Source: Verrucomicrobiaceae bacterium
Lineage (GTDB): Bacteria > Verrucomicrobiota > Verrucomicrobiae > Verrucomicrobiales > Akkermansiaceae
Length of the DNA: 9,031 nt
NCBI GenBank assembly: GCA_947372405.1
Contig: CANBTO010000175.1
Location: 1 to 9,031 of the forward strand
Reading direction: 5' to 3'
Under the pieces are notes generated by a model, which worked only from the letters and a program-made list of their open reading frames with translations, made no database searches and was not told where the DNA came from. Positions 1 to 9,031 of this stretch are shown here, one piece after another. Each line of letters opens with the position of its first letter. Position 1 is the first letter of the stretch. The position numbers and the translations under genes are program-made.

Positions 1-3000
1 TCCAGTGGCTCAGGCCCTCGCCGGTGGCGCTCTCGATCTCCAATCCATCCGGCACGTCGAGGTCCAGGCGGAACACGCCGGAGCGGGTGATCGTAACCGC
101 GAGATCGACGGCCACCACCATCCGGTCCTCACCGAGTGACACCAACTGCCATGACTCCGCACGCAGCTCGGGAGCCACCGCGGTGACCTTGAGCTTCGCC
201 TTGGCCGCGCCCGCGCCGTAGCGGAACGCGTGCTGTAGCAGCGCCAGCGGCTGTCCGTCACGGGTCCGCGGCAGCAGGCTGTTGTTGAAATCCTCCGGAT
301 TCACGCGGGAAAGGCCCTCGACATCCACGGACTCCGGCTGCACCTCGTCACCGAACGCGATTCCTAACAATCCCACCTCGCCCGCAGCGTGATCCACCCG
401 CACCGGCTCGAGTTCAAGTTGCAGCGGAAGGGCTCCGGCACCACGCTGGGTCTCGATGGTGAACGAGAATCCATCGCTGCGAGCCGGCTCCACCGTGACG
501 CGCAGCTCGCGTTTCTCCGGATCAAAGCGCCACGCGCCGACAGGTCCATCCCCCACATCGCTCACGGTGAAGCCCGCGGGAATCTTCATGGTCAGGGACG
601 AAACCCGGCCTTGTGCGGGACGGATCGTCACCAGATGGCGGCCGTTCACCACTCCTGGTCCGGGAATGAAAAGATTGGCAACCTCGGAGAAATACTTCGT
701 TTCCTCGCTGCCGGCGTCGCGCTGTTTCGGGCGGGCCTGGATTCTAACCGAATCCACCGGGCCCAGCGCCATCACCGCGCCGCTCTCGTCCGCCTTCAGT
801 CCCGTCAGAGCCTGGACCTTCGCCGCTCCCTGCGCGGAAAACTCCCAGCCGCCCTTGTTCCAGCGCAGCGTGACGCGCCGCATCGCCGCAGGGCCGGATG
901 GAAGATCCCAACCTTTCAGCGGATCCGCCAGTGGCATTTCGAAAACCGCCTTGCCGGTCGATCGTCCGCTTTTCTCAGCGACCAGCATGTAGCCGCTGAT
1001 TCCGTCCGACACGCCCTTCACCACCCGCAGGCCGGTGCCATCGAATCGGCTGAGCACGGCGGGCTCGCGCAGCAGCAGGAAGCGGTCTCCCGCCTCGCCG
1101 CGCACCGTCACGTCCACGGTGCCGTAGAGCCTGCCATCGCGGATCTGCCAGTCATGGACCATGGATTCCGCAGGTTTCACCTTCGTGGTTTCCTCCGCCC
1201 GCGCGCTCCATGGGATCATGCAGACCAGCGCCATCGCGGCCGCCACCGCCTCCAAGGCTTTGGGTTTCCTGAGCCCCTTCAAGGCCTGATAGATCCGGGG
1301 CAGCAGCCAGAACGCGCCCACCAGCGCGACGATGGCGAAGAACAGCGGAGCCCCTCCACGAACTGATAGAAACGCGGCCACCACCAGCACCAGCCCGCTG
1401 CCCAGCCACCAGCGGTCGCCCTTCACCACGCCCCGCAGGGCGGCGATGGTTCCGAGCACAAATCCAAGCCAGACGCCCCACCCGGTGCGTGCGACCCATG
1501 CCGGGACATTGCCCAGTTCAATCGAGATCTCGCTGTTCGCAGCCACCACGGGTGCCGCATATTCCAGTTTCGCCGAACCGACGCGCGATGTCATGCCGGC
1601 ATGCAACGCCAGTCCCAACGCAATCGAAACAAACGCCAATCCGCACAGGATCGCGAAGACTTTCCTCATGCCCGCCGGATTCCCCTTGCCCGTCAGCATG
1701 GTCGCGAGACCCGTTAGAAGCAGCAGTGCGGCGGCGCCACGTTTCCTCGCCATCCAGTCCCAGCCGCTTTCCGCGAGCACCGGTCGCACCAGATCCGCCG
1801 TGCCACCGCGCGGCACAAGCTGGCGGCCTTCATCGCCGGTCACCGTCCACTCGCCGATCACCACCGGCGCGTCGAGTTTCGGTGCGACCAGCCTCGGCTT
1901 GGAAGGGTTTGCGGCACGCGCTCCATAACGAAGCGCGACCTCCACCGCCTGGTTCGGATCCACCCGCGAAGGCAAGGGAACCAGCGTCTCGTCACCATCG
2001 GTGCGGGCGTTCACCGCCTCCCCATCCACCTTGGCCTCCCACAGCACCGCGTCCTTCGGAAACACCATGCGCAACGCGCTCTGGCCGCGTGTTTTCACGA
2101 AAATCCTCGCGTCCGTCACCCACTGGCCGTCACGCGACACCTGGCTGTTGAGCTTCTGGAAATCCACCACCTGCCCGACGGTCTCGCCGGGCTCGAACCA
2201 CTCGACATCCATGCGGATCTTGAACTCCCGCGCCGTGTATTGCCACGCACCCAACGTGGGGGCGCTGCTCAACAAACGGAACTCGGCCGGCAGTTCGGTG
2301 GGATCGATCGCCAACAGAGCGCCCTCGCTCGTGGCCTTGTGGTTCACCTGCAGCGGGCTGACCACCTGCACGAATCCCCGCTCGCCCTGCACACCCAGCG
2401 GACGCACCTCGCCGGGCGAAAGACTGCCGCCGCGCGAGTTCATCGGCTGCTCGAAGGTAAGAAGCACCGTGCCGGTTCCCAACACCGGACGCGACAACGG
2501 AACGATCACCGTGTTGCCATCCCGCCGCCAGTCGCGGCCGACGTTCTGGCCGGTCACATCGATGTTGCCGATGCCTTCGGGCACCGAGATCTTCCATTCG
2601 GTCGCCGGTGCGCCCACCACGAAGAAGTTCATCAGCACGCTGCCATAAACCTCACCCGCCTTGAGCGAGTAGAGATGGAAAACATCCGCCTGGATGCTCT
2701 GCCCGAGCGCCTCCACGGAAAGCTCCACATTCCATGTATCCTCACGGAGGCGGAACGCCTGCTGCAGGGCGTTGGTCTTCTTCGGGAAAAACGTGACGGG
2801 CACTTCGGCGACTCCCGCCGTCTTCCCTGCTGTTAGACGGTAGCCCGCGGCGGCCACCGCGCCGACATAACCGCGCCGCGACTTCACACCCGGAAACCCG
2901 AGCGGCTGGAGCGCCCACGCGCCGGCTTTGGCAGCCTCGTTCTTCTCGAGCCTCACACTGATCAACTGCCGGTCAGCGACTGCCTGCTTGAAGAGGACCT

Positions 3001-4873
3001 TGAGCTTGCGCCTGCCGTCCTTCACATCGCCGCCCACCGCGTAGTCCGCCACTTCCGCACCGGTCACCGAGGCCACCGCATGATCGGCCGGAATCTCCAT
3101 CTCCCACTCGCGCAGCGGAGCCTCGCGGATGTCCAGCTCCAGATCCGCAGAGATGCGGCGGTCGGTCTCGGCGAGTTCATACACCGTGACTTCTGTTAGT
3201 CCGACTTCCGGCAGCACTTGATTGGCATTCACCACATAGCCGTATTCCGCCGAAGGAAACCGATAGACAAAGACCTGGCGGAGTTTCTCATCGACTCCAC
3301 CGGGAAACTGGCCGGGCGCGAGCTGGATCAGTCCCTTGGCATCCGCCACTTCGATTCTAACAGCCCCGTCGTTCGCCACGCGCAGCCAGCCGCTGTGCCG
3401 CAACGCGCCGACAGGGGCCATGCGCAGCGCCTGCGCCTTCACCGGGAATCCGCCGAGAGCCGCCTGGGCCTCGATGACCACACGGCCCGCGCCCTCGATC
3501 GGGCGGCTGAGCTTCACGACCAAGCGGCGGGTGCCACCGCTTTCGATCACGTTCCAGCCCAGCACGGGCTCCCCGGAAACGGACAGGACCTCACCCGGAC
3601 CGTTGAGTGTTAGAGAAAGGTCGGCGAGCTTGCCTTGCAGCACGCGCAGGTCCACCACGGTCAGTTGCCGGAGCAGTCCGCTGCCCACCCGGACGTCGGT
3701 GGTTTCCGTGCTGGAGAAGAAAAGAGTGCCGTCCGCCACCTTGTCCGCCAGCCGCCATGCCATCGCGCCGGAGCCACTGGCCGGGAGGAATCCGCGCCAT
3801 TGCTTGTCAACAAACTGCGGCACGACCGACAGACGGTTGTCGAAGGAACTGTCCGCGCCGATGCCATCGATCATCACGGGAACCACCACGCCCGCCGGCA
3901 GGTTGAAGCCCAACATGCGCCAGTCGCCTTTCCTCATGACAGGCACTTCGAAGGCGAGGTTCACGGGAAATTCGCCGGCACGCTCGGCCACGAGATCGTA
4001 GCTCCATGCATCGTCGATTTTCCGAAGAGCCACGTGCCAGCCGTCGCCGGAAGCGGAGTCTGTTAGGGCCGCGCCGCCTGCCAGCAGTTCCACTGCGGAG
4101 CCATCGCCCCGCGACTTGGCGGTGCCGGTGAGTCGGAAGGAAACGCTCGATCCGTCGTCCGAGACCTTGCCGGTCAGCGCGGTGTTGGTCATTTCCAACC
4201 CGCGCGCGTCCGTGCCGGCGGGCGATATCTTCATGGTGATGCCCGCCTCTTCGGTGCCGATGAACTTCCGGTTCTTCGCACCTTCCAGCGGCGCGAGTCC
4301 ATCCACATCCGTCATCTTCAAGTCCACCCCGCTGTCCTCGGTGACGTTCACCTTGAGTGAGAAACCCGTCGCGCTTCCCGGCCCCGGCAGCAACAGATCC
4401 GCGGTTTCCTTTTCCACTTTGGATTTCGTTTGCACCAGAACCTCAAGTTCCTCCGCCGTCTTGCCCTCGACCAACACAGGCCGCACATCGAGAAAACGAT
4501 CGCCATCCTCCGTCACGCGCACCGACCAATCGCGAAGACCATTGCCAGTGACTTCCGTCACTTCCCCTTCCCCACTGAGCGCGAGCGTGAGTGTTTCGGC
4601 TTTTCCCTGATGGATATGATAACTGATCTTCTGCTCGGAAGTTACGGCTTCCAGCGTCACATGGGCTTCCACCTCGGCGGCTGCGGAGAAGAACAACGGA
4701 GCTTCCTTCGGGGCCTTGGTCCACGGCACGAGCACCATGCGTTCCTCCGCTTCCTGGGCATGGAGAAAGCCGGTCAGCACGATCAGGAGGGCGGACGCCA
4801 CTGTCCGCCATTTTCCAAGGCTCCGGACGGGACAGGAGTGTCCCGACTCCTTATGCAAAATGGTCGTTTTCAT
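1..4873 (-). CDS. Giant secreted/membrane protein with repeated beta modules (3' end outside window)
   Basis: I do not recognise this protein. The frame from ATG at 4873-4871 is free of stops to base 1 (1624 codons) and keeps GC-rich third positions throughout. Residues 1-40 form a signal peptide: a long n-region, hydrophobic V25-L37, likely cleavage after H-A39. Residues 40-1040 are beta-rich and contain a recurring pattern: alternating hydrophobics, Pro, then V-x-G-x-x-V, then a basic/hydrophobic strand and a 'V-x-L' strand. Hydrophobic segments lie at about 1047-1062, 1072-1092, 1131-1146, 1157-1171, 1175-1191 and 1207-1224. The last resembles a signal peptide ending A-R-A1226. The module pattern then resumes to the window edge. 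No catalytic motif was seen. No Shine-Dalgarno precedes the ATG, but no better in-frame start leaves a positive n-region. The gene follows the 234-aa gene after 43 bp and shares its 5' end. It may be a surface scaffold or secretion-related membrane protein; that is inference. Confidence 0.88.
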   Translation of the reverse strand, partial: MKTTILHKESGHSCPVRSLGKWRTVASALLIVLTGFLHAQEAEERMVLVPWTKAPKEAPLFFSAAAEVEAHVTLEAVTSEQKISYHIHQGKAETLTLALSGEGEVTEVTGNGLRDWSVRVTEDGDRFLDVRPVLVEGKTAEELEVLVQTKSKVEKETADLLLPGPGSATGFSLKVNVTEDSGVDLKMTDVDGLAPLEGAKNRKFIGTEEAGITMKISPAGTDARGLEMTNTALTGKVSDDGSSVSFRLTGTAKSRGDGSAVELLAGGAALTDSASGDGWHVALRKIDDAWSYDLVAERAGEFPVNLAFEVPVMRKGDWRMLGFNLPAGVVVPVMIDGIGADSSFDNRLSVVPQFVDKQWRGFLPASGSGAMAWRLADKVADGTLFFSSTETTDVRVGSGLLRQLTVVDLRVLQGKLADLSLTLNGPGEVLSVSGEPVLGWNVIESGGTRRLVVKLSRPIEGAGRVVIEAQAALGGFPVKAQALRMAPVGALRHSGWLRVANDGAVRIEVADAKGLIQLAPGQFPGGVDEKLRQVFVYRFPSAEYGYVVNANQVLPEVGLTEVTVYELAETDRRISADLELDIREAPLREWEMEIPADHAVASVTGAEVADYAVGGDVKDGRRKLKVLFKQAVADRQLISVRLEKNEAAKAGAWALQPLGFPGVKSRRGYVGAVAAAGYRLTAGKTAGVAEVPVTFFPKKTNALQQAFRLREDTWNVELSVEALGQSIQADVFHLYSLKAGEVYGSVLMNFFVVGAPATEWKISVPEGIGNIDVTGQNVGRDWRRDGNTVIVPLSRPVLGTGTVLLTFEQPMNSRGGSLSPGEVRPLGVQGERGFVQVVSPLQVNHKATSEGALLAIDPTELPAEFRLLSSAPTLGAWQYTAREFKIRMDVEWFEPGETVGQVVDFQKLNSQVSRDGQWVTDARIFVKTRGQSALRMVFPKDAVLWEAKVDGEAVNARTDGDETLVPLPSRVDPNQAVEVALRYGARAANPSKPRLVAPKLDAPVVIGEWTVTGDEGRQLVPRGGTADLVRPVLAESGWDWMARKRGAAALLLLTGLATMLTGKGNPAGMRKVFAILCGLAFVSIALGLALHAGMTSRVGSAKLEYAAPVVAANSEISIELGNVPAWVARTGWGVWLGFVLGTIAALRGVVKGDRWWLGSGLVLVVAAFLSVRGGAPLFFAIVALVGAFWLLPRIYQALKGLRKPKALEAVAAAMALVCMIPWSARAEETTKVKPAESMVHDWQIRDGRLYGTVDVTVRGEAGDRFLLLREPAVLSRFDGTGLRVVKGVSDGISGYMLVAEKSGRSTGKAVFEMPLADPLKGWDLPSGPAAMRRVTLRWNKGGWEFSAQGAAKVQALTGLKADESGAVMALGPVDSVRIQARPKQRDAGSEETKYFSEVANLFIPGPGVVNGRHLVTIRPAQGRVSSLTMKIPAGFTVSDVGDGPVGAWRFDPEKRELRVTVEPARSDGFSFTIETQRGAGALPLQLELEPVRVDHAAGEVGLLGIAFGDEVQPESVDVEGLSRVNPEDFNNSLLPRTRDGQPLALLQHAFRYGAGAAKAKLKVTAVAPELRAESWQLVSLGEDRMVVAVDLAVTITRSGVFRLDLDVPDGLEIESATGEGLSHW

Positions 4874-4883
4874 CGGTTTGTGT
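4751..4883 (-). repeat. Duplicated 5' gene end, copy A (leader, start and signal peptide of giant gene)
   Basis: The leader A-C-A-C-A-A-A-C-C-G, the ATG and the first 41 codons resemble the same part of the 234-aa gene (5502-5630). Both proteins begin M-K-T-x-x-L-H-K-E-S-x-H-S-C and both signal cores run L-L-I-V-L-T-x-x-L-H-A-Q-E. Downstream of codon 41 the proteins are unrelated. This points to duplication of a 5' cassette or copying by gene conversion, not to whole-gene paralogy. Confidence 0.75.
4828..4850. repeat. Small REP-like hairpin element, copy A
   Basis: On the plus strand a 7-bp stem CGGGACA / TGTCCCG encloses the loop GGAG (4828-4845). An overlapping alternative stem pairs GGAGT (4835-4839) with ACTCC (4846-4850), so two hairpins exclude each other. 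It lies inside codons 8-16 of the giant gene. In the coding sense it begins next to AAGGAG, a Shine-Dalgarno-like word inside the reading frame. There is no T-run after it, so it is not a terminator. Confidence 0.65.
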
Positions 4884-4916
4884 GTTGGTTGTTTCAAAGG
4901 GCTTGCGGGCATTCAT

Positions 4917-5621
4917 TCAGTCCCCGCTCTTCTCCAACAGCGTGATCGTCCGCTCCGGAGACTTCGATTGCTCCCGGCTGACATAGTCGTGATTCCATTT
5001 CAGGTGGACGGAGTCGCCGGGTTTCAGCGCGAGGATGGCATTGTGGATTTCCGCGGAAACCTTCAGGTTCTTCATGTTGTCTTCTATCAGAATCTGGAAT
5101 TGCTCCTGCTTCGGATCGCCATACTCGCCGGGTTTCTCGTAGTTGAGGTATTTGACGATTTCAAAGACGGCGAGCTTGCCCGAGGAGCCGCAACGGTCGG
5201 GGCAAAGCTTTGTGGCACCATTGCAAGTATGATCCTTCAGCCCCGTGAAGCGGGCGATGGTGTCGTGGGCGGAAAGCAATTCGCGTTGTTCCCTGGGCAT
5301 GAGTTTCTTTTCCACCGCCGCGCGCCATTCGATGGATTTGATTTCAGGCCCTTGACCTGCGGCATCCATCAACTTGAGTCGTTTCGTCAAGGCATTGGCC
5401 CACTCATCCGAGCCGATGTCGGGACCATGACCTTGGGCATCGGTGACGGGCTGCTGATCCTCCGCCCATTTCGCCCATGCCGCCCATTCCTTGGGAGCGG
5501 GTTCCTGGGCGTGGAGAAGACTGGTCAGGACGATGAGGAGCAAGCACGCCAATGTCCACAGGCTGTGCCTCCGATCGGAACAGGAGTGTTCCGACTCCTT
5601 ATGCAGAGTGTTCGTTTTCAT
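4917..5621 (-). CDS. Secreted protein of unknown family: tandem repeats plus HxCx6Cx3C domain
   Basis: This encodes 234 aa, function unknown. Residues 1-39 are a signal peptide with an unusually long n-region (M-K-T-N-T-L-H-K-E-S...) and core L25-L37, likely cut after H-A38. Residues 45-60 are Trp/Ala-rich. Residues 61-85 and 86-108 are two copies of a repeat with consensus D-A-x-G-x-G-P-[DE]-I-x-S-x-E-W. Residues 114-230 form a domain shared with the upstream gene: A-R-F-T-G-L, D-H-x-C133-x6-C140-P-D-R-C144-G-x-S-G-K-L, then YEKPGEYGDPKQ, ILIEDNMKN, LKPGD, WNHDYV and SKSPER. By hand count 86 of 117 residues match the paralogue. His131 and the three Cys could bind metal or form a disulfide. 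The protein ends soon after SPER and has no cystatin part. The start was chosen because it is the only ATG before the hydrophobic core and matches the giant gene's start. No Shine-Dalgarno is visible upstream. Predicted periplasmic or extracellular; same operon. Confidence 0.9.
   Translation of the reverse strand: MKTNTLHKESEHSCSDRRHSLWTLACLLLIVLTSLLHAQEPAPKEWAAWAKWAEDQQPVTDAQGHGPDIGSDEWANALTKRLKLMDAAGQGPEIKSIEWRAAVEKKLMPREQRELLSAHDTIARFTGLKDHTCNGATKLCPDRCGSSGKLAVFEIVKYLNYEKPGEYGDPKQEQFQILIEDNMKNLKVSAEIHNAILALKPGDSVHLKWNHDYVSREQSKSPERTITLLEKSGD
5298..5441 (-). repeat. Two tandem ~25-codon protein repeats
   Basis: Residues 61-85 and 86-108 of the 234-aa protein align as D-A-[QA]-G-[HQ]-G-P-[DE]-I-[GK]-S-[DI]-E-W, then A-[LV]-x-K-[RK]-L-x-L-M or a close variant. 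The first copy is two residues longer. A weaker Trp-rich stretch (E-W-A-A-W-A-K-W-A) just before may be a decayed third copy. The paralogue at 5652-6365 lacks this insert. The function of the repeat is unknown. Confidence 0.7.
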
Positions 5622-5630
5622 CGCTTGTGT
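5502..5630 (-). repeat. Duplicated 5' gene end, copy B (leader, start and signal peptide of 234-aa gene)
   Basis: This is the partner of the segment at 4751-4883: leader A-C-A-C-A-A-G-C-G, ATG and 40 codons. The two copies are nearly identical across the hairpin element and diverge gradually through the signal-peptide core. The upstream paralogue (237 aa) has an unrelated short signal peptide, so the shared N-terminus was gained separately from the shared Cys domain. Confidence 0.75.
5576..5598. repeat. Small REP-like hairpin element, copy B
   Basis: This is the same element as at 4828-4850: stem CGGAACA / TGTTCCG with loop GGAG (5576-5593), and alternative stem GGAGT (5583-5587) / ACTCC (5594-5598). 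Relative to copy A one stem pair has changed from G-C to A-T on both sides, so pairing is kept. It lies inside the signal-peptide n-region of the 234-aa gene. Confidence 0.65.
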
Positions 5631-5651
5631 TCTCTAACAGGCTATCGCGCC

Positions 5652-6365
5652 TCACTTCCACGCCCAGGACGTCAGCGACATCGCGCCATCGAGTTGCAGA
5701 TAAACCACGGCTTCCGCCTGTCTTTCCTTGCCATCGTCGGTGAGCTTGAGATGGAGCCTGAAATTCATGCCAGCCACCACCTGCTGCTGCGCGTCCACGA
5801 TGCCGACGAGCGCTAGTTTGGGCGATTCCGCCTTCTTCCGCTCAACGGCGAATTCAGCCGCCTTGCGGACCCGTTCGTCGTTCATGTCAGCCCTGGAGTA
5901 TCCTCCAACAAGCGGGGCTTGGTGTTCGGCAGCCGGCGCAGCCAATGGCTCCAGCTTGACGATCACCCGCTCGGGAGACTTGGAACGATCCTTGGTCACG
6001 TAATCGTGATTCCAGTCCAGGCGGACCTGATCGCCCGGCTTGAGGGCGAGGATGGCATCCCGGATCTCCTCCGGGACCTTCGCGTTCTTCATGTTGTCCT
6101 CGATGAGGATGCGGAACTCCTTCTGCTTGGGATCGCCATATTGACCGGGCTTTTCGTAGGCGAGGTAGCGGGTGATTTCGAACACCGCCAGCTTGCCCGA
6201 ATCTCCGCAACGGTCCGGACACAACGAAGTACGGCCCAGGCATTGGTGATCCACCAAACCCGTGAAGCGGGCTTCCGTCTGGTGGGAGGATAGCAACTCT
6301 CGTCCGTTGGGTTCCTCAGCAGGAAGGAGAAGGGCGGACAGCATGAGAAGTAGCAGCGGTTTCAT
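5652..6365 (-). CDS. Secreted HxCx6Cx3C-domain protein with C-terminal cystatin-like domain
   Basis: This encodes 237 aa. Residues 1-16 are a short, classical signal peptide (M-K-P-L-L-L-L-M-L-S..., cut near P-A16). Residues 23-139 are the unknown domain shared with the downstream 234-aa protein, including D-H40-x-C42-x6-C49-P-D-R-C53-G. An Ala/Pro linker (142-151) leads to residues 152-237, which carry the cystatin hallmarks in order: G154-G155, helix motif A-A-E-F-A-V-E (169-175), Q195-V-V-A-G199, and C-terminal L-T-S-W234. In cystatins the Gly pair, QxVxG loop and a Trp hairpin wedge into papain-like protease active sites. The loop is intact here, so inhibition of C1 cysteine proteases is possible but inferred. 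Its target could be a host, predator or self protease; the context does not tell. The gene sits 82 bp after the VWA gene and 30 bp before its paralogue. The leader just before ATG is A/C-rich without a Shine-Dalgarno. Confidence 0.92.
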   Translation of the reverse strand: MKPLLLLMLSALLLPAEEPNGRELLSSHQTEARFTGLVDHQCLGRTSLCPDRCGDSGKLAVFEITRYLAYEKPGQYGDPKQKEFRILIEDNMKNAKVPEEIRDAILALKPGDQVRLDWNHDYVTKDRSKSPERVIVKLEPLAAPAAEHQAPLVGGYSRADMNDERVRKAAEFAVERKKAESPKLALVGIVDAQQQVVAGMNFRLHLKLTDDGKERQAEAVVYLQLDGAMSLTSWAWK

Positions 6366-6447
6366 GGTTGTGGTTTTGATGGGACCTATGAGTCATATAG
6401 GTCATATAGGATCTATGGTTTCGTTTCAGTAAACTCTCCGTAAAATC
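6366..6447. promoter_or_regulatory. 82-bp AT-rich spacer with tandem 9-mers and a short inverted repeat
   Basis: This spacer separates the VWA gene from the cystatin-domain gene. It holds two perfect head-to-tail copies of TCATATAGG (6393-6401 and 6402-6410). An inverted repeat ACCTAT (6384-6389) / ATAGGT (6397-6402) overlaps the first copy. It is the longest intergenic gap and the most AT-rich non-coding stretch, so it is the likeliest place for an internal promoter or an RNA-processing site. No clear -35/-10 pair, terminator hairpin or Shine-Dalgarno could be assigned. The operator idea is inference. Confidence 0.4.
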
Positions 6448-9031
6448 TCACTTCAGCACATCCAGCATGTGCAGCACCTCGCCCACGCGGCCGTTACCGC
6501 CGTAGAAGCGCTTCACGTTGGCGCGGGGTTCGGCGAGTTGTTTGAAATCGATGGCCTCGCCGAGCGGGCCGCCTTTGAGTTTCTCCGCGGCGAGCATGGC
6601 GAGCGTCGCAAGCTGCATGGAGGGTGTGGCACGGTCGAATACCGGAGCCTTTTCATCGTGGGGAATCGTCCATGAGCGCTCGACCATCTGGTTGCTGGCG
6701 GCGTCGTGGAAACGCACGCTCACCTCGCCGAGTTCGCCGCTGCCACCGGGGATAGGCTCCACCTGATAGACGGCCACACCGGCCTCGTCTGCGGCGAGTT
6801 CCGCGGCGTCCACCTTGTCGTTGCGGAAGTCCTCGGTCTTCAGGCGGTCCTTTTCGAAACCGATGAGCTTGTAGCGTCCCACGCGCTCCGGGTTGAAGCG
6901 CACCTGCACCTTCACGTTTTCCGCGGCGGGATGGAAGGCACCGGCAAGCTGCTTGCCGAAGTTGTCGTCCGCGCCCTTGCCCACGACATAGTAGCGGCCG
7001 TTGCCGTTGCGGGCAAGCTCACCTAACAACTCGTCGTTCAGTCCGTCCGCGGCGATGCCGGCGATGTCGAAGGAGACGCCCTTCTGGCGCAGTTGCTTGA
7101 CCTTTTCGGCCAGCTTGACGGGATCGGCGTTGCCGAGATTGGCTGCACCGTCCGTGAAAAGCACGATGCGGTTCTGCGCTCCGGCCTGCTTGTGGCGCTC
7201 CGCCATCTGCTCGCCGAGCTTGATGGCCTCCTCCAGATTGGTACCGCCCTCGCTGGCGGTCTGGTTCACCAGGTCACCGAGTTTCGCCGCCTGATCGCCA
7301 GACATGGCGTCGGCCAGCAGGTGCGGGGTTCTGGAAAACCCGATGACCGTCACGCTGTCCTTGTCGGTTAGAAGTCCGGCAAGCCCGGCGAGCGCCTTGT
7401 CCATCGCGGCGCGGCGGTCCTCGCGCACCATCGAGCCGGACTGATCGACCAGCAGTGTGAGACGAAGCGGTTGCGCTGCGGAGCGACCGGCAGCGGCGGT
7501 CTTGAGCGCGATGCGCACCAGGTTGCGGCCGGGAATGACCGGATGGGCGGCCTGCTCGATGTTCACGGCAACCGGTTCGTTGGAAGTCGGCGCGGGATCG
7601 CCGTAGTCCACGGCGTTGTAGAACTGCTCCACCTTGATGCCCGCGGGATCGGGGCGCTCGCCCTTGGCCAGCGCGGCCTGGGCGACCTGGAACGAGGCAT
7701 CGCTGATGTTGAGGGAGAAGGTGGAGTAGGGATCCTCCGTGGCGGCGATCTCCTCCATGAGATCCACCAGGGGAACCGCGGGTTTCTCCATCAGGTTATC
7801 TCCCAACTCGAGGCCCCGAAACAAATATTCGTTCGAATATCCGGTGTGGATATCATATTCAACTCCTCCGGCAAGATTGTTCGTTTCAGCAGCTTTCGAT
7901 GTATCCCAGAACTGCTCTACTTTGGCAGGTGTCTTAGGAACCGAATCGGAAGCAGCGACGTCAGGCAACACTGGCGGCTCGGCAGGTTTGCCTGCCGCAA
8001 TCGGCGATCCATCGTTCACAAATCCTTCAAAACCTTCTTTGCCACCTTTTTCCTTGGGCTCTTCATCCGCCGGGACCTTCAACTCCCAAGCTGCATCCAC
8101 CTGTGAGAGAAGTTCGGCGCGCGTGTGGTCGTAGGCGGCGCGGTAATAATCGGACTTCGCCTGGGCGATGCGCTCCATGCCGTGGCGTGCGGCTGTGTTG
8201 TAGGGATCCGCACGCAAGACGTTTTCATACTCGTGCTTGGCGTCGTCGAATTTGCCCAGGTTGTAGTTGCCCTCGGCGGTGTAGAGGCCACGACGAACCT
8301 TGTCCACATTCTCGGTTTGTTCGTAGGTCAAAGCCGGATTGGTGCGAATAGGATCATCCAGATAAGCGGCTTCTCGTTTTGCGACATCATTGCCCGGATT
8401 GGCCTTGAGCGCGGATTCAAGTTCTTCGCGCGCTTCGTTATACTTGCCGACCTTGCGGTCCTGCATGGCCTTGGCAACGCTGGCATCGCTCAGATGTAGT
8501 TTGTAAGTTTGAAGGCGATCAGCGAACAACGGCGCATTCGGAACCTTGTCGATGGCTTTGGCAAATTGTTCCGCGGCCTTTTCATAATCTCCTTTTGCAT
8601 ATGCCTCGCGCCCGGCAGCGAGATGCGCGTCACCCTCGACGACGGATTCCTGGCGACGGATCATCTCGCGCTGGGCAAGTTCGCTTCGAGAACCCGAACC
8701 GGGCGATGCGCTCGACAATGTCGCGGTTGAAGATGAGGGATCGGCGAGAGGAAGAGCTCTGAGTCCTTCGACATCCTCGGGACCACTTCGGGTTGTGATT
8801 TTTGGGACTGTAAGCTTTTTCACAGTCCCATCTGGATCAGTAACAGTAATTTCTTGGTTGGGATTCACTTGTGACGTATCCGACAACGTGGAAGTTGAAG
8901 ATGCGGGAGCGTTCGCGATTCCACCACCAAAACCAAGCGTGCCGCCTGTCACGTGCGTATTGCCCGTGTAAGTATTGGTTCCACTCAAGTTGAGCCTGCC
9001 CCCATTCATCGCCGTATTCAGTCCGGACTCG
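6448..9031 (-). CDS. Mosaic TPR + YfbK-type VWA domain surface protein (5' end outside window)
   Basis: The frame is still open at base 9031 and codes in frame upstream of the first ATG in the window (9009), so the true start is probably outside. Numbering is from that Met. Residues 5-30 match a passenger-associated transport (PATR) repeat: L-N-L-S-G-T-N-T-Y-T-G-N-T, G-G-T-L-G-F-G-G-G. Residues 35-108 are a Ser/Thr/Pro linker. Residues 110-313 are TPR-like and recall the N-terminus of the Amuc_1098 pilus secretin family (D-D-P-I-R-T-N-P-A-L, D-P-Y-N-x-A-A-R, S-D-Y-Y-R-A-A-Y-D-H-T-R-A-E-L-L). Residues 383-405 look like an outer-membrane beta strand. Residues 428-475 are the YfbK N-terminal region (P-Y-S-T-F-S-L...). 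The VWA domain (515-690) has a complete MIDAS: D522-x-S524-x-S526, T590 and D620. Residues 690-850 fit the DUF3520-like tail. It probably binds a metal-dependent ligand at the cell surface or periplasm. First gene of the likely operon. Confidence 0.92.
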   Translation of the reverse strand, partial: ESGLNTAMNGGRLNLSGTNTYTGNTHVTGGTLGFGGGIANAPASSTSTLSDTSQVNPNQEITVTDPDGTVKKLTVPKITTRSGPEDVEGLRALPLADPSSSTATLSSASPGSGSRSELAQREMIRRQESVVEGDAHLAAGREAYAKGDYEKAAEQFAKAIDKVPNAPLFADRLQTYKLHLSDASVAKAMQDRKVGKYNEAREELESALKANPGNDVAKREAAYLDDPIRTNPALTYEQTENVDKVRRGLYTAEGNYNLGKFDDAKHEYENVLRADPYNTAARHGMERIAQAKSDYYRAAYDHTRAELLSQVDAAWELKVPADEEPKEKGGKEGFEGFVNDGSPIAAGKPAEPPVLPDVAASDSVPKTPAKVEQFWDTSKAAETNNLAGGVEYDIHTGYSNEYLFRGLELGDNLMEKPAVPLVDLMEEIAATEDPYSTFSLNISDASFQVAQAALAKGERPDPAGIKVEQFYNAVDYGDPAPTSNEPVAVNIEQAAHPVIPGRNLVRIALKTAAAGRSAAQPLRLTLLVDQSGSMVREDRRAAMDKALAGLAGLLTDKDSVTVIGFSRTPHLLADAMSGDQAAKLGDLVNQTASEGGTNLEEAIKLGEQMAERHKQAGAQNRIVLFTDGAANLGNADPVKLAEKVKQLRQKGVSFDIAGIAADGLNDELLGELARNGNGRYYVVGKGADDNFGKQLAGAFHPAAENVKVQVRFNPERVGRYKLIGFEKDRLKTEDFRNDKVDAAELAADEAGVAVYQVEPIPGGSGELGEVSVRFHDAASNQMVERSWTIPHDEKAPVFDRATPSMQLATLAMLAAEKLKGGPLGEAIDFKQLAEPRANVKRFYGGNGRVGEVLHMLDVLK

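Follow-up and report, generated by a model that had tools for sequence, protein, structure and literature searches.

A bacterial cystatin domain fused to a cysteine-containing domain in an operon of a Verrucomicrobiaceae bacterium

The locus and the fusion protein

The window analysed here is a stretch of 9,031 nucleotides (nt) of DNA from a Verrucomicrobiaceae bacterium (assembly GCA_947372405.1, contig CANBTO010000175.1, positions 1 to 9,031, forward strand); its minus strand carries a gene for a 237-residue protein with a cystatin domain at its C-terminus (Table 1). Read in the direction of the genes, a TPR/VWA/YfbK_C protein is followed by this cystatin fusion, a tandem paralogue of its N-terminal part and a protein of 1637 residues, with gaps of 82, 30 and 4 bases between them. 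The VWA neighbour had been named in a first-pass annotation made from the sequence, and Pfam confirms it on the same strand, ending 82 bases upstream of the fusion gene.

The fusion protein consists of a start (MKPLLLLMLSALLLPAEE) that, judged by eye, resembles a signal peptide, an N-terminal domain with conserved cysteines, a linker and the cystatin. From its start the protein is probably exported. The full-length predicted structure has a predicted local distance difference test score (pLDDT) of 88.0 and a predicted template modelling score of 0.59, with residues 146-153 below pLDDT 50. Other collections add little: NCBIfam had no informative match to the fusion protein (best row E 0.081, under its cut-off), PHROGs gave no match to it at E≤1 and a single row for the tandem paralogue (E 0.062), and an Rfam scan of the window returned zero matches at the gathering threshold.

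Table 1. Positions of the features in the window. ORF, open reading frame; A2 and A3, alignments of the cystatin and of the N-terminal domain
Feature	Positions	Strand	Evidence
Fusion protein, 237 residues	5652..6365	-	ORF, ATG start; Pfam; full structure model
N-terminal domain, ~residues 22-140	5946..6302	-	Relatives, C-x6-CPxxCG motif, model
Stretch with C42, C49 and C53 of the N-terminal domain	6207..6242	-	All three invariant in 57 rows of A3
Cystatin domain, residues 150-237 (fold from ~154)	5655..5918	-	Pfam, phmmer, predicted fold, residue check
GGY N-terminal trunk, residues 154-156	5898..5906	-	Residue check; at least 90% conserved in A2
AEFAV helix motif, residues 170-174	5844-5858	-	Residue-by-residue check
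QVVAG first hairpin loop, residues 195-199	5769..5783	-	Residue check; A2
LTSW second hairpin loop, residues 231-234	5664..5675	-	Residue check; A2
TPR + VWA/YfbK_C protein, open at window end	6448..9030	-	Pfam; upstream neighbour
Tandem paralogue, 234 residues: GHGPD-type repeats and the same N-terminal domain, without cystatin	4917..5621	-	ORF, Pfam, comparison with the fusion protein's relatives
Large protein, 1637 residues, runs off window, no Pfam match above cut-off	2..4912	-	ORF, Pfam

The C-terminal domain is a cystatin

The first-pass annotation had claimed the classical cystatin landmarks in order (Gly-Gly, A-x-F-A-V-E, QVVAG and S-W), and a residue check bears this out. The Pfam profiles agree: in hmmscan, residues 160-234 match SQAPI (PF16845; 42.4 bits, cut-off 31, E 9.5e-11) and residues 154-211 match Cystatin (PF00031; 32.7 bits, cut-off 22.2, E 8.9e-8). 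A phmmer search of PDB sequences found 34 distinct chains at E≤1, nearly all of them named as cystatins or cystatin-derived binders, with potato multicystatin (4lzi) at the top (3e-12). The domain is predicted with a pLDDT of 94.3 to form one helix followed by four long strands, the helix wrapped by an antiparallel sheet as in a cystatin, and cystatins are the best matches in a structure search with this model. A chance motif was rejected, because profiles and predicted fold agree.

Cystatins contact their targets through an N-terminal Gly, a QxVxG loop and a Trp in the second hairpin. All three segments are present in the window protein (G154/G155, Q195-G199 and W234). Across the 67 rows of alignment A2, in fragment numbering, Q46, V48, A49 and G50 of the QVVAG loop are invariant, as are L82 and W85 of the second loop, in which T83 and S84 are nearly so. 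Type 2 (animal) cystatins have two conserved disulfides, whereas residues 150-237 contain no cysteine at all; stefins (type 1) are cytoplasmic and lack a signal peptide.

Because the top-scoring Pfam model, SQAPI, is named for aspartic proteinase inhibitors, and because complexes of cystatin E/M with legumain and of fetuin-B are among the structural matches, we considered whether the target could belong to another class, with legumain (C13), an aspartic protease (the target of squash SQAPI) or a metalloprotease (that of fetuin-B) as candidates. However, the SQAPI and Cystatin models overlap on one stretch of the protein; the model's name therefore leaves the target undecided and was rejected as proof of aspartic protease inhibition, and QVVAG and SW are papain-type contacts. 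We regard a target in any of these three classes as improbable.

Small stand-alone bacterial cystatins (such as P0138, P0143, P0148 and P0224) share the pattern GGY...AAEFAV...QVVAG...LTSW and are 35-57% identical to the window domain, with P0121 reaching 75%, but they comprise 86-152 residues and lack the N-terminal Cys domain. The phytocystatins (tarocystatin, 3ima, and potato multicystatin, 4lzi) differ from the window protein, which lies in a bacterial operon, is fused to a Cys domain of the Planctomycetes-Verrucomicrobia-Chlamydiae (PVC) group and has an SLTSW second loop. We judge the window domain to be a genuine cystatin; its bacterial kind is known though sparse, while its domain setting is new.

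Bacterial cystatins are known but sparse

Occurrence in a bacterium is not new by itself. Cystatins and stefins have been reported from several bacterial phyla since 2009 (Kordis and Turk, PMC2784779); that paper's table, as far as it was available, lists neither for Verrucomicrobia. The passages available describe cystatin domains in bacteria, propose inhibition of eukaryotic-host proteases and include one multi-domain fusion (Polaribacter), but the fusion partners described here do not appear in them. Among the literature matches listed, as excerpted, the phrase "bacterial cystatin(s)" occurs only in PMC2784779 and in the review PMC3594739, and none is an experimental study of a bacterial cystatin; matches listed that pair cystatin with "Verrucomicrobi-" concern mostly kidney disease and gut microbiota.

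With the 88-residue domain as query, 201 proteins were found at E≤1e-3. The best 120 of these are 86-152 residues long, most with signal-peptide-like starts (judged by eye), and the few source names given are Verrucomicrobiota, Acidobacteria and Pyrinomonadaceae. QVVAG is present in 120/120, LTSW in 118/120 and, anywhere in the protein, a G-G/S/A-Y/F pattern in 118/120, counts that are inflated because candidates had to share exact five-residue words with the query. A less biased view comes from whole genomes searched with a profile from A2, although that profile was built from the same relatives; it was used because a PF00031 search of seven relatives' genomes gave no match but was uninformative, control genomes being silent as well. 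The samples were 387 genomes from the phylum of G001, the Akkermansiaceae metagenome-assembled genome that contains locus L001, and 260 genomes from its family. Cystatins were found in 8 of the 387 and 5 of the 260, one genome being shared, for a total of 12. QxVxG is present in all 12, as is the trunk (strict GG in 10), and the Trp hairpin is present in 11; the sole genome without it (locus L021) is a weak match (E 4e-5). The three protease-contacting segments are thus retained jointly in 11 of 12. The first-pass statement that bacterial examples are uncommon holds as to their sparseness (8/387 genomes), with the qualification that the kind has been on record since 2009, in the parts of PMC2784779 available, and has 201 relatives. 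Carriage on mobile elements is unsupported, with 0 matches in 72,556 plasmid and 50,697 phage records (tblastn, E≤1e-3).

The N-terminal domain and the history of the operon

The fusion partner had been described in the first-pass annotation as an unrecognised Cys domain, and Pfam indeed has no model for it; the rows it gives are all weak, the best being DUF6491 (E 0.013, for 2 of 57 members). Searching with the whole fusion protein found 208 proteins at E≤1e-3; among the best 120, C-x6-CPxxCG is present in all, W-x-H-x-Y-V in 110 (a near-invariant WNHDYV segment in the domain) and a GHGPD repeat in 81. A cystatin motif occurs in only two of these 120: P0001, which differs from the window protein by one residue, and P0002, a single chain with GHGPD repeats, the N-terminal domain and a cystatin. 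The GHGPDxxSxEW short repeats themselves, seen in the tandem paralogue and at 247-2361 of locus L028, match no Pfam model. We consider the N-terminal domain a candidate new PVC-group domain family, possibly metal-binding. A profile from A3 gave just two rows against PDB sequences (E 0.62 and 0.65). In the full model, its elements run strand-strand-strand-helix-strand-strand, an order that resembles that of an OB (oligonucleotide/oligosaccharide-binding) fold; weak rows of the structure search include some single-stranded-DNA-binding proteins, and viral structures gave zero matches at E≤1e-3.

Thirteen further genome loci carry the N-terminal domain, from organisms labelled Akkermansiaceae, Verrucomicrobia, Verrucomicrobiaceae, Prosthecobacter, Verrucomicrobiales, Akkermansia, Planctomycetota, Pirellulaceae, Kiritimatiellaeota and Lentisphaera. 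Six of the 13 (L001-L005 and L007) have a VWA/YfbK_C protein on its upstream side, and relatives of the large protein lie downstream at four of those six (L001, L002, L004 and L007), two of them reaching the contig end; L003 and L005 have no large protein downstream. Over the matched parts, the large protein is 77% identical to that of L001 and the VWA protein 83% to that of L002. The N-terminal domain is present once at each of the 13 loci, versus twice in the window, and none of them has a cystatin by the same profile that detects those of the window and of L014-L025. An older operon thus seems to have gained the second copy of the domain and the cystatin. The two copies in the window are separated by a nonsynonymous divergence (dN) of 0.23 and a synonymous divergence (dS) of 1.19 over 118 codons.

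Two observations concern the VWA gene. Residues 106-329 of its product, the TPR part, match NF042912 (Amuc_1098 type IV pilus outer membrane protein; 271.9 bits, E 1e-80, cut-off of 750 not reached); the VWA/YfbK_C part is thus linked to a TPR region like the one in a pilus secretin. Ahead of the VWA gene of L003, an ORF at 4719-5318 resembles an ECF (extracytoplasmic function) sigma factor by eye, and the start of that VWA gene resembles an anti-sigma-like region; a dedicated sigma factor may control the operon.

Cystatins are fused to several partners

Other cystatin fusions occur in the family-sample genomes. At L029 and L030, a 3-keto-disaccharide hydrolase (PF06439, E 9.3e-38 and 1.9e-36) has a cystatin at its end; SQAPI scores 30.8 bits in the former, just below its cut-off of 31, and 34.8 in the latter, the Cystatin model is below cut-off in both, and the two cystatins differ by dN 0.26 and dS 1.4. 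The L028 protein, 705 residues long, opens with a cystatin and has GHGPD repeats of the type found in the N-terminal-domain family. A close copy of its first part is present at L027, and since the L027 and L028 cystatins (genes also numbered L022/L023) hardly differ, without a synonymous difference over 98 codons, we counted them as one event. These proteins resemble the window protein in joining a cystatin to another module, but they have other partners, lie on other branches of the tree and, in L028, place the cystatin first. When the L028 domain was used as query against proteins of roughly 390-1230 residues, the sole match at E≤1e-3 among 341 candidates was P0241 (400 residues, cystatin at the start), so long fusions sharing the L028 domain's words are rare. 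At L026 and L034, cystatin genes have VWA-like or MoxR-like genes (so named by eye) nearby, a pattern that we set aside as too irregular for any argument.

Of the 120 stand-alone cystatins listed, 52 were tried for a tree of 62 domains and 48 entered it; the domain-cutting pattern removed P0121, P0124, P0146 and P0157, and also L021 from the 12 loci. The tree requires three changes of fused state, and well-supported branches force at least two of these. Because partners and domain order differ, it is simpler to assume separate fusions, though the changes could be losses and the tree alone is no proof.

Such varied partners also fit a reading in which the cystatin fold is a non-inhibitory module that binds or stabilizes exported proteins, as in eukaryotic cystatin lineages. 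The fold serves many binders and other functions (affimers, monellin, latexin and fetuin are among the structural matches), and loss of inhibition is described as a trend in vertebrate families in the available part of Kordis and Turk (PMC2784779). However, a mere scaffold would not need the three protease-contacting segments that are kept together in 11 of 12 genomes, and we consider this reading unlikely, if still a serious one.

A putative exported inhibitor of foreign proteases

The first-pass annotation suggested a secreted anti-protease or self-protection role. An exported anti-protease is the likeliest role on present sequence evidence; guarding against the cell's own C1 proteases is not favoured. 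Regulation of an endogenous C1-family peptidase would be feasible in part of the phylum, since Peptidase_C1 occurs in 67 of the 387 phylum-sample genomes (E≤1e-5; drafts) and, at E≤1e-3, alongside the cystatin in G019 and G516. Yet these are two of the 12 cystatin-bearing genomes, a share close to that in the phylum sample (small numbers from drafts), with no C1 match in the other ten, and in the phylum sample C1 is present in one of eight cystatin genomes versus 66 of 379 others. Thus, no association of the cystatin with an own C1 peptidase was found (the search covered Peptidase_C1, and not C13, C1B or other families of clan CA), which makes foreign targets likelier, though not demonstrated, and an endogenous C1 target a doubtful proposition.

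We put the probability at roughly 0.5 that the window gene encodes an exported two-domain protein that is probably an active C1A inhibitor, is aimed at a foreign target and protects the producer's exported proteins. The C-terminal cystatin, structurally intact in prediction, would insert the classical wedge of Gly-Gly trunk, QVVAG loop and Ser-Trp loop into the active-site cleft of cysteine proteases of the papain family (C1A) and so block it. The N-terminal Cys domain, common to the neighbouring gene and many PVC-group proteins, may keep the inhibitor at the cell surface or in the periplasm, or direct it there, so that it would sit beside the VWA/TPR protein and the operon's large product. 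Its target would most likely be a protease of foreign origin (protist grazers, other bacteria or eukaryotic debris), and the producer would gain protection of its own exported proteins.

The available part of PMC2784779 explains bacterial cystatins mainly as defence of pathogens and commensals against host proteases (cathepsins). Because the cystatins here are fused to probably exported proteins and to an enzyme, and because C1 peptidases are no commoner beside them than elsewhere, protection of secreted proteins is suggested instead, an idea that would be inexpensive to test because the domain has 88 residues and no cysteine. More tentatively, the cystatin may be a detachable protease shield in Verrucomicrobiota and relatives, fused repeatedly to unrelated exported proteins (the PVC-group Cys domain, GHGPD repeats and the 3-keto-disaccharide hydrolase) and shielding them, both in cis and in the vicinity, against papain-type proteases that grazers and competitors produce. 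If true, such shielding would be a general way to survive with secreted enzymes where proteases abound.

A palindromic repeat within the coding sequences

A palindromic repeat (GGGACAGGAGTGTCCC or GGAACAGGAGTGTTCC, then GACTCCTTATGCA) lies at 4829-4857 and 5577-5605 of the window and at 5646-5750 of L002. In the window, it falls in the first ~30 codons of both downstream ORFs and encodes KESxHSC ahead of their signal-peptide-like segments; in L002, four copies inside one short ORF encode a repeated peptide. Its 14-base core, GGACAGGARTGTCC, occurs in six of seven related genomes (21 copies in G002, seven in G001, six in G003 and one in each of three), with 0 copies for a reversed-pattern control. 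The repeat is reminiscent of the Rickettsia palindromic elements.
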